Assembly (NCBI GenBank): GCA_947487165.1 | Contig: CANKWX010000002.1 | Coordinates: forward strand, 1-64,000 | Origin: Burkholderiales bacterium | GTDB taxonomy: Bacteria > Pseudomonadota > Gammaproteobacteria > Burkholderiales > Burkholderiaceae_E | Length of the DNA stretch: 64,000 nt | Direction: 5' to 3' | Shown: piece after piece, positions 38,893 to 42,918 of the stretch | Numbering within the stretch: the first letter of the stretch is position 1 | Layout of the letters: each line of letters begins with the position of its first letter | Notes under the pieces: generated by a model | What the model was told of the DNA's origin: nothing | The model's database searches: none | What the model saw: the letters and a program-made list of their open reading frames with translations, nothing else | Made by a program: the position numbers and the translations under genes

Positions 38893-39045
38893 GGCGTTTC
38901 CTTGCACGCTGGGTGGTCGAATTTCTCAAAAGCGGACCGTGTGTGAACAAGTCTGGTGACTTGGCCACGCGGGTTCGCTATCTTCTATCAGAACACGCTC
39001 ATGTCGATGCGTGATCACTCAAATGACGGCAGGAGCCCCGACCCA

Positions 39046-39915
39046 ATGACCGATGCGACTTATGCGCCCGCGACAATCTGGACCTGGAACAAGGCCAGCG
39101 GCGGACGTTTCGCCAACATCAACCGACCGATCGCAGGCGCGACGCATGACAAGGAGCTGCCGATCGGTCGTCACCCGATGCAACTCTATTCACTGGGAAC
39201 GCCCAACGGTGTGAAGGTCACGGTCATGCTCGAGGAGCTGCTCGCGCTCGGGCACACCGGCGCCGAATACGATGCCTGGCTGATCCGCATCAGCGAAGGC
39301 GACCAGTTCGGCAGCGGTTTCGTCGACGCCAATCCCAACTCGAAAATTCCTGCACTGGTTGATCGCAGCGGCGCCACACCGATCAATGTCTTCGAGTCGG
39401 GTGCGATCCTGCTGCATCTGGCCGAAAAGTTCGGCGTCTTCCTTCCTGCACAGGGCCAGGCACGGGCTGCCTGCCTGTCGTGGCTCTTCTGGCAGATGGG
39501 CAGTGCGCCCTACCTGGGCGGCGGCTTTGGCCATTTCTATGCCTATGCACCGACGAAAATCGAATACGCCATCGATCGCTTCGCCATGGAGGTCAAGCGC
39601 CAGCTCGACGTCCTCGATCGCCATCTGGCCACGAGCGAATACATGGCTGGTCAGGATTACTCGATCGCCGATATTGCGATCTGGCCCTGGTATGGCGCAC
39701 TGGCCAAGGGTCTGCTCTATGGCGGCGGCGAGTTTTTGCAGGTCCAGGAATACAAGCATGTTCAGCGCTGGACCGATCAGATCGCCCTGCGACCCGCGGT
39801 CAAGCGCGGCCGGATGGTCAATCGATTGATGGGCGATCCGGCAAACCAGCTGCACGAGCGCCATGACGCCAGCGACTTCGACACCAAGACGCAGGACAAG
39901 CTCGCAAAGAGCTGA
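39046..39915 (+). CDS. yghU: glutathione transferase/disulfide-bond oxidoreductase, YghU type
   Basis: 289 residues, the same size as E. coli YghU, a nu-class GST with glutathione-dependent disulfide reductase and peroxidase activity. Typical blocks are TIWTWNKASGGRFANINRPIAG at the N-terminus, QLYSLGTPNGVKVTVML, NPNSKIPALVD, VFESGAILLHLAEK and QDYSIADIAIWPWYG. ATG 39046 has AGGAG about 10 bases upstream. The thioredoxin-fold gene of the selenoprotein pair starts 20 bases downstream, so the GST may be the head of a thiol-redox operon. Confidence 0.92.
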   Translation: MTDATYAPATIWTWNKASGGRFANINRPIAGATHDKELPIGRHPMQLYSLGTPNGVKVTVMLEELLALGHTGAEYDAWLIRISEGDQFGSGFVDANPNSKIPALVDRSGATPINVFESGAILLHLAEKFGVFLPAQGQARAACLSWLFWQMGSAPYLGGGFGHFYAYAPTKIEYAIDRFAMEVKRQLDVLDRHLATSEYMAGQDYSIADIAIWPWYGALAKGLLYGGGEFLQVQEYKHVQRWTDQIALRPAVKRGRMVNRLMGDPANQLHERHDASDFDTKTQDKLAKS

Positions 39916-39935: not shown

Positions 39936-41387
39936 ATGAGCATTGCGCATGTGTCGCTACCCGTCGCGGGCCTGATCGCCGTCGTCAAGCGCGATTGCCC
40001 CACCTGCGTCCTGATCGAGCCGGTGCTGGCCGAGCTGGCGCTGGGCGGCAATCTGACGGTCTTTACGCAGGACGATCCGGTCTTTCCTGAATCGATTGGG
40101 CATCCGGTTGACGACACCGCGCTGAATGTGTCGCATGCCCTGGCCATCGAGATCGTTCCAACGCTGATCCGCCGCGAGGCCGGAGCCGAGATCGACCGTA
40201 CTTTCGGCTGGGATCGCAGCGAGTGGCAGCGCGTGAGCGGGCAGGACAAACTCGGCGCCGACTTGCCTGCCCTGCGTCCGGGTTGCGGGGCGCTGAATGT
40301 CGAGCCGGCGAAGCTCGAAGATCTGCTGATCCGTTTCGAGCAGACCGGATTGAACGCTCGGAAAGTCGAATTCGGTGAGGACGAGGACGAGATCGAAGCG
40401 ATCTATCAGCGCGGCTGGACCGACGGATTGCCGGTCGTGCCGCCGACTCAACGCCGGGTGCTGCGCATGCTCGGCGGTACCACCCGTGACCCCGGGGAAG
40501 TGATCGGCGTGTGTCCTCCCAATCTGGTGCCCTTGACGGTTGAAAAAGTCGCGATCAATGCGGTGATGGCAGGTTGCAAGCCCGAGTACCTTCCGGTCGT
40601 ACTTGCTGCGGTCGAAGCAGTACTCGATCCGGCCTTTGCGATGCACGGCGTGCTTGCAACCACGATGTTCGTCGGGCCGGTGCTGGTGGTCAATGGCCCG
40701 ATACGCCGGCAGATATCGATGAACGCCCGCGGCAATGCGCTCGGCCAGGGCAACCGCGCCAATGCAACCATCGGGCGGGCCCTGCAGCTCGTCATCCGCA
40801 ATGTGGGCGGTGGCAGGCCGCAGGAAGTCGACCGGGCCACGCTCGGCAATCCCGGCAAATACACCTACTGTTTTGCCGAGGACGAGGAAGGGTCGTCCTG
40901 GGAGCCCCTGTCGAGCGACTTCGGGCTTGCGCGCGGCGTCTCGAGCGTCACGGTCTTTGCCGGATTCGGACTTCAGGGCATTGTCGATCAGAAATCGCGG
41001 ACCCCTGAGAGCCTTGCGCGCAGCATGGCCGAGTCGCTCAAGGCGATTCACAACGTCAAGCTCGCACCCGCCTGCGACGCGATGCTGGTGGTCTGCCCCG
41101 AGCACGAGCGCACCTTCAGACAGGCCGGCTGGAGCAAGCAGCGATTGCTCGACGAATTGATGCGGCTTTGCGAGATTCCGGGCGACAGCCTGGTGCGCGG
41201 CGCCAAGGGCATCGACGAGGGCTATCCCGAGTCGGTTGCAGGCACCACACGAAACAAATTTCGCCCGGGCGGACTGCTCATCGTTCGCGCGGGCGGCGGC
41301 GCCGGAATGTTCTCCGGCATCATCGGCGGCTGGTCTTCCGGCGGTGCAGCCGGATCGCTGCCTGTCAACAGAGAGGTGAAATCATGA
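39936..41387 (+). CDS. thioredoxin-fold protein, partner of the UGSC selenoprotein
   Basis: 483 residues in two parts. Residues 1-115 form a thioredoxin-like domain with the dithiol C21-P-T-C24 and a cis-Pro-like IVPTLIR segment. From about 145 a conserved domain of unknown function follows, with the signature WTDGLPVVPPT and then EVIGVCPPNLVPLTVEKVAIN, GPVLVVNGPI, GNRANATIGRALQL and a Gly-rich end (RAGGGAGMFSGIIGG). AGGAG lies upstream of the ATG. The last codons overlap the selenoprotein ATG (ATGA, 41384-41387), so the two are translationally coupled. A reducing or complex partner role is inference; the enzyme reaction is unknown. Confidence 0.8.
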   Translation: MSIAHVSLPVAGLIAVVKRDCPTCVLIEPVLAELALGGNLTVFTQDDPVFPESIGHPVDDTALNVSHALAIEIVPTLIRREAGAEIDRTFGWDRSEWQRVSGQDKLGADLPALRPGCGALNVEPAKLEDLLIRFEQTGLNARKVEFGEDEDEIEAIYQRGWTDGLPVVPPTQRRVLRMLGGTTRDPGEVIGVCPPNLVPLTVEKVAINAVMAGCKPEYLPVVLAAVEAVLDPAFAMHGVLATTMFVGPVLVVNGPIRRQISMNARGNALGQGNRANATIGRALQLVIRNVGGGRPQEVDRATLGNPGKYTYCFAEDEEGSSWEPLSSDFGLARGVSSVTVFAGFGLQGIVDQKSRTPESLARSMAESLKAIHNVKLAPACDAMLVVCPEHERTFRQAGWSKQRLLDELMRLCEIPGDSLVRGAKGIDEGYPESVAGTTRNKFRPGGLLIVRAGGGAGMFSGIIGGWSSGGAAGSLPVNREVKS

Positions 41388-41902
41388 CTGTCATCATGGA
41401 CCCGACGGCGGAACAAAGCCCGACGTCGCGCGAAAGGCTGGCGCGCCCCGACCAGCTGCAAGGCCTCACGGTCGGTCTGCTCGATATCTCGAAACCGCGG
41501 GGCAATGTTTTTCTTGATCGCCTCGATGAACTGCTCACCGAGCGCGGCATCGTCGTCAAGCGCTACATGAAGCCCACGGTGGCAAAGCCAGCCCCCTTGC
41601 CATTGCGTCAGCAGATCGTGGGTGAGGTCAATGTGGTGATCGAAGGGTTGGCCGACTGAGGGTCCTGTACGTCGTGCTGTACGCATGACCTCGCAGATCT
41701 CGAAGCCAGTGGCATTCCCTCGGTCGGTGTGGCCACCACCGAATTCATCGATGCAGCAGCCGTCCAGTCGAAGGCGCTCGGTACCGATCCGGCTTATGTT
41801 TTCGTGCCGCATCCGGTGCAGGATCGTACCGACGACGAAATGAAAGCGATGGCCGATCAGCACCTGGAGGCAATTCTCGCGCTGCTGGTCAAGAAGTCCT
41901 GA
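41384..41902 (+). CDS. UGSC-family selenoprotein (in-frame UGA read as selenocysteine)
   Basis: 172 residues when the TGA at 41657-41659 is read as Sec92; read as stop, only 91 residues remain. The motif is U92-G-S-C95-T-S-C98-C99-T-H-D, the hallmark of the UGSC family reported from marine selenoproteome surveys. The frame continues for 80 codons (SVGVATTEFIDAAAVQSKAL, then FVPHPVQDRTDDEMKAMA) to a normal TGA at 41900-41902. GAGAGG lies 8 bases before the ATG. A hairpin directly follows the UGA. The redox Sec/Cys suggests reductase or peroxidase chemistry with the overlapping upstream thioredoxin-fold gene; the reaction is unknown. No sel genes are in this window, so decoding depends on genes elsewhere. 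Confidence 0.88.
41661..41690 (+). promoter_or_regulatory. candidate bacterial SECIS hairpin for Sec92
   Basis: Starting 2 bases after the UGA codon: GGTC (41661-41664) pairs with GACC (41687-41690); an internal loop follows; T-G plus GTAC (41667-41670) pairs with GTAC (41679-41682); the 8-base apical loop GTCGTGCT (41671-41678) contains GU dinucleotides. It lies inside the coding region directly 3' of the UGA, as bacterial SECIS elements do. Folding was done by eye, not calculated. Confidence 0.5.
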
Positions 41903-41973: not shown

Positions 41974-42918
41974 ATGCACCTTGAAGGCAAAGCTGCCATC
42001 GTCACCGGCGCGGGCCGCGGCATCGGCCGCGATGTCGCGCTGCTTCTTGCCCGCGAGGGCGCACGGGTCATCGTGAACGACCCCGGTGTCGGCCGCGGCG
42101 GCGAACCGACCGACGAGCGACCGGCCGACGACGTCGTCAACGAAATCAGGGCAGCCGGTGGCACTGCAATCGCCAACTACGACAGCGTGGCCGATTACCA
42201 GAAAGCCGGACGCATGGTCGCGCAGTGCGTCGATACCTTCGGCAAGATCGACATCCTGGTCAATGTCGCCGGCATGCTTCGCGAGCGCATGATCTGGAAC
42301 ATGTCGGAAGACGATTTCGACACCGTCATCAATGTGCACCTGAAGGGGCACTGGGCGATGTCGCATCACGCAATCAAATACATGCGGCGCGAGGGCTATG
42401 GGCGCATCGTGAACTTTTCGTCGGATGCCTTCAAAGGCTCAGTGGGTCAATGCAACTACAGCGCGGCCAAGGCCGGCATCATCGGACTGACCCGCTCGAT
42501 CGCCAAGGAGACTGCGAAATTCGGCATCACCTGCAACGCGCTGTGCCCTGCCGCCGACACACGGATGATGATGAATGACGCGGTGATCGCGAATCAGAAG
42601 CGCAAGCTCGAGGCCGGGCTGATGACGCAGGAACAGTACGACCGCTTCTTCGAAGGCCGCGGACCGGAGCATATTGCACCGATGGTCGCTTACCTTTGCA
42701 CTGACGGCGCCGACGCGATCAACGGCCATGTCTTTCACGTCGAGAAGGGACGCATCAACACCTACTACTACGGCGAAGACTTCAAGACCCTGACCAATGA
42801 TGGCTCTGTGTTCACCGTCGATCAGCTAATCGCGCAGATCCCCTCGAGCATCATGAGCGGCATTACCCCGGTAGTGCCTGCCGTCAAGCGGGAGGATGCG
42901 GTCAAATCCGCCGGTTAG
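41974..42918 (+). CDS. SDR-family dehydrogenase (hydroxyacyl-CoA dehydrogenase/MFP2-like)
   Basis: 314-residue classical SDR. Visible are the NAD(P) loop TGAGRGIGRDVALLLA, the acidic D after strand 2 (VNDPGVGRGG, suggesting NAD), NVAG, and the catalytic Y162-S-A-A-K166 with the Ser strand NFSSDAF. The extra loop after beta-2 (GVGRGGEPTDERPAD) is typical of the (3R)-hydroxyacyl-CoA dehydrogenase part of MFP-2-like proteins. It starts 71 bases after the selenoprotein gene on the same strand and may be in the same operon. The stop overlaps that of the convergent acyl-CoA synthetase gene by 4 bases. Confidence 0.9.
   Translation: MHLEGKAAIVTGAGRGIGRDVALLLAREGARVIVNDPGVGRGGEPTDERPADDVVNEIRAAGGTAIANYDSVADYQKAGRMVAQCVDTFGKIDILVNVAGMLRERMIWNMSEDDFDTVINVHLKGHWAMSHHAIKYMRREGYGRIVNFSSDAFKGSVGQCNYSAAKAGIIGLTRSIAKETAKFGITCNALCPAADTRMMMNDAVIANQKRKLEAGLMTQEQYDRFFEGRGPEHIAPMVAYLCTDGADAINGHVFHVEKGRINTYYYGEDFKTLTNDGSVFTVDQLIAQIPSSIMSGITPVVPAVKREDAVKSAG

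Follow-up and report, generated by a model that had tools for sequence, protein, structure and literature searches.

UGSC proteins rank with the commonest selenoproteins of aquatic metagenomes, with 255 selenocysteine (Sec) versus 21 cysteine (Cys) sequences reported in the part of the Global Ocean Sampling study available to us (PMC2398784). According to the accessible portion of a 2026 review, UGSC is listed among the selenoproteins with largely uncharacterised biological functions, and UxxCxxC is given as the motif of GrdB (PMC13188914). Our literature search on UGSC proteins found no biochemistry in the portions of the sources that are accessible, and no mention of the Pfam family PF24696 was found; the available text of PMC2398784, PMC13188914, PMC9312934, PMC9402790, PMC5029168, PMC1088965 and PMC12176620 names no partner gene, except for the fusion of UGSC to a domain designated Unknown_1 in the Global Ocean Sampling study. 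The original prediction for the locus described here had placed the family in marine metagenomes; it is indeed present in the Global Ocean Sampling study, but is reportedly commoner in non-marine samples (PMC2398784, available part).

The gene examined here lies in a stretch of 64,000 nucleotides of DNA from a Burkholderiales bacterium, referred to as the window. Its reading frame starts with ATG at 41384 and runs through 91 sense codons to a TGA at 41657-41659, which is followed in frame by GSCTSCCTHD, the beginning of a segment of 80 codons that contains no further stop before the TGA at 41900-41902. The coordinates and codon counts originally given for this frame are right. The locus comprises the following features.

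38956..39915, + strand: glutathione-dependent disulfide-bond oxidoreductase (NF008731, GST family), directly upstream in 4 of 8 orthologous loci
39936..41387, + strand: near-obligate partner, 483 aa, with an N-terminal thioredoxin-fold domain (Cys-Pro-Thr-Cys) and an unmatched core; near UGSC in 42/42 Cys loci
41384..41387, + strand: ATGA stop/start overlap of the partner and UGSC genes, read from the sequence
41384..41902, + strand: UGSC-family selenoprotein gene, 172 residues plus stop, with predicted Sec92; matches NF041046 and PF24696
41657..41659, + strand: in-frame UGA, predicted Sec92 of the UxxCxxC motif U92-G-S-C95-T-S-C98; 44 of 45 homologous places carry TGA
41671..41689, + strand: candidate bSECIS upper stem-loop, stem 41671-41677 with 41683-41689 (7 bp), loop 41678-41682 (UGUAC)
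41974..42918, + strand: SDR-family dehydrogenase, directly downstream in 4 of 8 orthologous loci

When read through the TGA, the protein matches NF041046 (UGSC_fam) with 147.9 bits (cut-off 125; profile positions 2-146 of 147) and PF24696 (UGSC) with 143.3 bits (cut-off 25; positions 2-171 of 172), i.e., it scores above both curated cut-offs, and the UGSC motif occupies residues 92-95, in agreement with the family assignment made from the letters alone. The motif and the length are those of the family, which has Sec and Cys forms, and there is no essential difference between the family and the window protein. Judged by these matches, the window protein is a member of an already known selenoprotein family with an uncharacterised function, which is the unsurprising part of the results. 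What is added to the known family is the pairing with a partner, the fold, the alignment with GrdB-like proteins and the linkage to selAB, and these make the function testable. The original prediction took in neither the upstream partner nor the hairpin, nor the resemblance to selenoproteins of the GrdB type.

The CGSC homologues that had been predicted were found as well. A scan of named genomes with a pattern demanding Cys codons (TGC or TGT) yielded 42 loci, which we take to be from Burkholderiales, Rhodospirillales, Hyphomicrobiales, Bacteroidota, Actinomycetota, haloarchaea and others, and one TGC form is present among the relatives of the window genome. Alignment A1 has 17 rows; A2, A3 and A5 combine the window's own sequence with 33, 34 and 24 of the 42 Cys loci, respectively, the rows dropped being near-duplicates and one truncated gene. 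The U/C-G-S-C motif is invariant in A3 and varies in some divergent paralogues (GAC, GTC, GRC); Cys95 is invariant in both A1 (17 rows) and A3 (35 rows).

That the UGA at 41657 encodes Sec92 is almost certain, a reading that several lines of sequence evidence support, namely the conservation of TGA, a downstream hairpin, the decoding machinery and purifying selection. A search of 61 genomes (the window's own and 60 relatives) with the UGSC profile gave 45 places, the window's included, of which 44 carry the TGA and one is a CGSC form (TGC). Loci that were extracted and read show the TGA at the motif itself; the exception, L022, is the Cys form. From a set of 30 UGSC loci, the motif filter extracted 24; besides L022, a contig end truncates L023, and L024, L032, L033 and L034 were passed over by the filter, and L023 and these four all show TGA at the motif on separate inspection. 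The possibility that 41657-41659 is a miscalled TGC or TGT, which had been named as a refutation of the prediction, is in practice excluded by the 44 of 45 homologous places that carry TGA.

The median dN/dS among nine orthologues is 0.077 before the TGA (80 codons) and 0.054 after it (77 codons), and among seven members of a second paralogue group the corresponding values are 0.100 and 0.149; since all these values are far below 1, what follows the TGA encodes protein. TGA does not serve generally as a sense codon in this DNA because the UGSC gene and the gene preceding it both end in TGA, and a general reassignment was rejected on these grounds.

The original prediction would have fallen with the absence of selB, selC or selD from the genome, and all four sel genes, selA included, are present in the assembly (3.78 Mb, 140 contigs, 98.26% complete). 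The genome encodes SelA (572 bits), SelD (423 bits) and SelB (a frame of 685-691 aa on contig 125), and selC is found on a contig outside the window as a tRNA-Sec match of 70 bits that ARAGORN calls tRNA-SeC with the anticodon tca. The tRNA scan of the window itself found none. A second tRNA-Sec match above the cut-off (contig 20, 49.6 bits) is a tRNA-Ser according to ARAGORN. Two similar, non-identical selB N-termini are seen in the assembly, at contig 33:2-568, where the gene adjoins selA and is cut by the contig end, and at contig 125:3242-5230, the long frame; judging from the sequences, these could reflect either a duplication or a mixture of strains in the assembly. Over the genome set, selA is above the cut-off in 14 of the 15 genomes with a TGA-bearing UGSC gene versus 12 of the 46 others, a count from related genomes uncorrected for kinship, so that a Fisher value for this association is no clean probability. 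In one genome (G004), a TGA-bearing UGSC fragment lies at a contig end and selA is absent.

The hairpin downstream of the UGA fits the bSECIS model quoted in the accessible part of PMC13188914, i.e., a stem of 4-16 bp, a loop of 3-9 nt with G in the first two positions, a distance of 16-37 nt from the UGA and an MFE of -7.5 or below. Here, the stem has 7 bp, the loop 5 nt, the distance from the UGA to the loop is 18 nt, and the folding energy is -13.5 to -16.8 kcal/mol (39 and 46 nt). Counting the UGA as 1-3, the stem joins 15-21 to 27-33, and the loop at 22-26 has its G-U at 23-24 (41679-41680). Of 15 distinct Sec sequences, 14 have at least six of the seven pairs together with the loop GU, as against none of 39 distinct Cys sequences, in a comparison of 24 Sec loci with 43 Cys loci whose rows were not preselected for the hairpin. 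In the forms encoding TSWSVHD, the loop serine is AGU in Sec sequences (two distinct) and AGC in Cys sequences (one distinct, three loci), a small sample. In the wider paralogue set of 33 distinct Sec sequences, drawn from 40 of the 45 UGSC profile matches and the 24 loci extracted earlier, the hairpin is found in the common register in 24; the remaining nine are divergent, mostly fused paralogues, several of which have a strong hairpin in another register. Both sides have changed at three of the seven pairs, and none of 500 shuffles reaches the covariation score; the rows of this test are the 24 of 33 distinct sequences chosen for the hairpin, so that the percentage paired is high by construction. 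The Rfam scan of the window gave no match at the gathering thresholds.

That the TGA is a true stop, leaving a 91-residue protein or a pseudogene, or else a sequencing error, is extremely improbable. A standard gene caller would halt at this codon, and folding of the single sequence only modestly beats shuffles (z -1.5 to -2.0), both of which such a reading accommodates. It is contradicted by TGA in 44 of 45 homologous places, by a dN/dS of 0.054 downstream of the TGA, by a hairpin specific to the Sec forms and by the complete Sec machinery; sequencing error, pseudogene and simple stop were accordingly rejected on the conservation of the TGA and the purifying selection that follows it.

The UGSC gene does not stand alone. 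A homologue of the partner is found near UGSC in all 42 Cys loci, usually abutting, and in 28 of the 30 loci of the genome set, the two exceptions being a contig-end fragment and a locus with the partner 3.5 kb away. In 36 of the 42 Cys loci, a possible start codon of the second gene would give the 4-nt overlap seen here, 24 loci having one gene order and 12 the other, a count in which the true starts are unproven and which becomes 32 of 42 with a heuristic choice of start. Among the 61 genomes, 15 have both genes, one has UGSC only (the G004 fragment) and none has the partner only. There are 49 partner copies versus 45 of UGSC, some loci having two partners, and two of the 49 partner copies (G041:C13:101991 and G047:C4:128240) have no UGSC match within 6 kb. 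Two partner homologues adjoin one UGSC gene at L079:4230-7583 and L105:6590-8666, which suggests that the partner subunit is duplicable.

Furthermore, UGSC and the partner are fused in one reading frame in 12 of the 40 places examined. In this respect, they resemble the UGSC/Unknown_1 fusion, in which a UGSC domain is likewise joined to a second domain (PMC2398784, available part); Unknown_1 might, as a guess, correspond to the partner core. From this pattern of adjacency and fusion, the partner and UGSC very likely associate physically, and we infer that they would constitute a two-subunit protein.

The partner finds no family match in Pfam even at an E-value of 10. When 34 partner members were compared with Pfam and NCBIfam, only thioredoxin-like models and weak, scattered matches were obtained, and no model of either collection matches the core. 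The 34 aligned partners fall into two types, 20 with a CxxC thioredoxin-like domain (type 1) and 14 without a thioredoxin domain (type 2); the absence of this domain implies that any recharging must differ in type 2.

In the predicted structure of the UGSC protein (mean pLDDT 91.4), beta-strands at 29-34, 57-62, 84-90, 113-118 and 137-141 alternate with alpha-helices; residue 92 lies after a strand, just before a helix. In the fold search, the model matches flavodoxin- and receiver-like chains, and we model the UGSC subunit as flavodoxin-like. This differs from the thioredoxin-like fold proposed for UGSC (PMC2398784, available part); no thioredoxin is among the matches listed, although a list of this kind is no proof against that fold. 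The best of the listed structural matches is 8S7V chain H of the MCR activation complex (Z 12.2, 3.0 A over 131 residues, 16% identity), a fold resemblance only, a designed protein reaching Z 11.7 in the same list. The accessible text on the MCR activation complex describes FeS-cluster subunits (PMC12176620).

The model of the partner (pLDDT 87.3) has a thioredoxin fold at its N-terminus (Z about 10), followed by a core for which no match was convincing. The best Foldseek matches of the partner, a class I fumarate hydratase (E 3.9e-4, TM 0.23) and Toblerone-fold cyclic amide hydrolases, were set aside as too weak. The VIA match list for the whole partner was filled by matches to the thioredoxin domain, so that it barely probes the core. 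A sequence search against solved structures returned nothing significant for either protein.

Beyond its own family, the UGSC protein resembles, as far as sequence comparison can tell, the Sec half of the GrdB/GrdF/GrdH/PrdB family (TIGR01918, PF07355), with which it shares the UxxC(xxC) motif, Sec aligning on Sec with GrdB-like proteins of the same phylum. In hhalign, the UGSC alignment A3 (35 rows) and a GrdB-like alignment A7 (seven rows only, with UxxC or CxxC) match with a probability of 65 and an E-value of 6e-5, the motif U92-G-S-C95-T-S-C98 being aligned Sec on Sec. Matches to TIGR01917 at E-values up to 0.1 are found for 24 of 35 UGSC members, weak but repeated. UGSC has 172 aa as against 431-435 positions in the GrdB-family profiles, and the window protein scores far under the family cut-offs (19.2 bits with TIGR01917, cut-off 602.2; 14.5 bits with TIGR01918, cut-off 65.45), hence UGSC is not a member of the GrdB family. 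The partner core shows no relation to either the GrdB-like profile or the UGSC profile. Glycine reductase employs pyruvoyl chemistry, which is not indicated here because the partner core is unrelated to GrdB-like proteins.

A separate GrdB-like protein is encoded elsewhere in the genome of the window (L136:1183-2085, + strand, contig 22); its frame contains a TGA, its motif is U-P-V-C and it has no Pfam match at 0.001. It has a Cys paralogue with C-P-I-C in the same genome (L132:1366-2223, - strand, contig 39; PF07355, 32.5 bits). The in-frame TGA of the L136 protein points to at least one more probable selenoprotein in this genome.

The genes flanking UGSC vary from locus to locus; in high-G+C DNA they were predicted by codon scoring, as the longest ORF is unreliable there. 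In the window, two GST-family genes adjoin the pair, and the oxidoreductase at 38956..39915 is probably outside the UGSC system. A fixed GST-partner-UGSC-SDR operon was rejected, this arrangement being found in 4 of 8 orthologous loci.

The same genome holds another TGA-bearing partner-UGSC pair directly upstream of selA-selB (L015/L101, contig 33:1-9000), its UGSC gene lying between the partner homologue and selA, and selA follows the same second paralogue in relatives (L009, L018, L025, L026). In this paralogue group, selA lies within 1.5 kb downstream in five of seven cases, about 2 kb away in G025 and on another contig in G009.

Two genomes of the same order have 19 and 6 UGSC copies. In the former (G041, L112-L130), all 19 carry TGA, the partner homologue of each is no more than about 3.5 kb away, and several of the pairs are fused in a single frame. 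Genes for TctC, the tripartite tricarboxylate receptor, account for 28 of the 129 genes flanking 24 loci of these two genomes; TctC is abundant in both genomes overall (at least 149 scoring in each; 386 and 417 candidates), and set against this background an enrichment near UGSC loci is likely. Elsewhere, 20 hand-picked flanking genes include BKACE, 3HCDH (3-hydroxyacyl-CoA dehydrogenase), SDF dicarboxylate symporters, a class III aminotransferase, an amidohydrolase, an acyl-CoA synthetase-like protein and a thiolase, along with a TonB receptor, a helicase, a caspase-like protein and an ABC transporter of no evident bearing. In five Bacteroidota loci (L051, L052, L054, L055, L057), a gene beside a 3-hydroxyacyl-CoA dehydrogenase-like gene is directly upstream of the pair; it is BKACE in L054 according to Pfam, and the other four cluster with the L054 gene by BLAST. 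This combination resembles what we take to be a degradation cluster of the carnitine/betaine type. Altogether, the predicted functions of the flanking genes point to organic-acid catabolism, with no single fixed pathway.

We infer complex formation, a catalytic cycle and a substrate class along the following lines. The SelA/B/C/D machinery of the genome almost certainly reads the UGA at 41657 as Sec92, aided by the downstream bSECIS hairpin. The UGSC product would be the catalytic Sec subunit and the upstream gene (39936-41387) would provide the other subunit. Sec92, which in the model follows a beta-strand and opens a helix of a flavodoxin-like domain, one akin to the Sec domain of GrdB/PrdB-type reductases, would attack or reduce the substrate, which the partner core would bind; a selenenyl-sulfide between Sec92 and Cys95 would be the resolving step, and the CxxC thioredoxin domain of the partner would recharge Sec92/Cys95. 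The substrates would probably be organic acids or their derivatives, in catabolism. GrdB-like catabolic redox chemistry is a serious candidate that falls just short of being probable, and the whole chain, a two-subunit, Sec-dependent, thioredoxin-recharged catabolic redox enzyme, is proposed a shade more tentatively.

The pair could also be a real selenoprotein system with another role. One alternative is general redox defence, with the pair acting as a thiol/peroxide or disulfide reductase that the partner's thioredoxin domain feeds. Such a role would be in keeping with the UxxC motif, with the thioredoxin-fold domain of type 1 partners and with the two neighbouring genes of the GST family in the window; we regard it as unlikely, as type 2 partners lack the thioredoxin domain, GST adjacency extends to only 4 of 8 orthologous loci, and the 19 copies of one genome, set among diverse genes for transport and catabolism, suit a diversification of substrates better than defence. 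A non-redox enzyme, with the selenolate or thiolate acting as a nucleophile or as acid/base, has a model in the flavodoxin-fold enzymes of the Asp/Glu racemase kind, and both the alternating beta-alpha fold, in which the reactive residue begins a helix, and the catabolic neighbours are compatible with it. The invariance of Cys95 three residues on, a resolving-cysteine pattern, and the kinship with GrdB argue against such an enzyme, which we consider slightly less likely still.

A Sec-dependent catabolic redox pair being the preferred reading, a broader version of it, rather unlikely as it stands, is that these pairs represent an undescribed class of two-subunit Sec-reductases, in which the GrdB principle would operate outside the anaerobic amino-acid fermenters, with a thioredoxin module of its own in one subtype, a radiation to different organic acids and one copy often linked to selAB. 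If this is true, the 19 UGA-bearing copies in a single genome would represent a radiation onto different organic acids, and the selAB-linked copy would let the Sec machinery and its main client be expressed together. A standard annotation would lose Sec92 and all the residues after it. The near-obligate, adjoining partner provides a handle on the family, and the pair, rather than UGSC alone, would be the right target to purify and assay.
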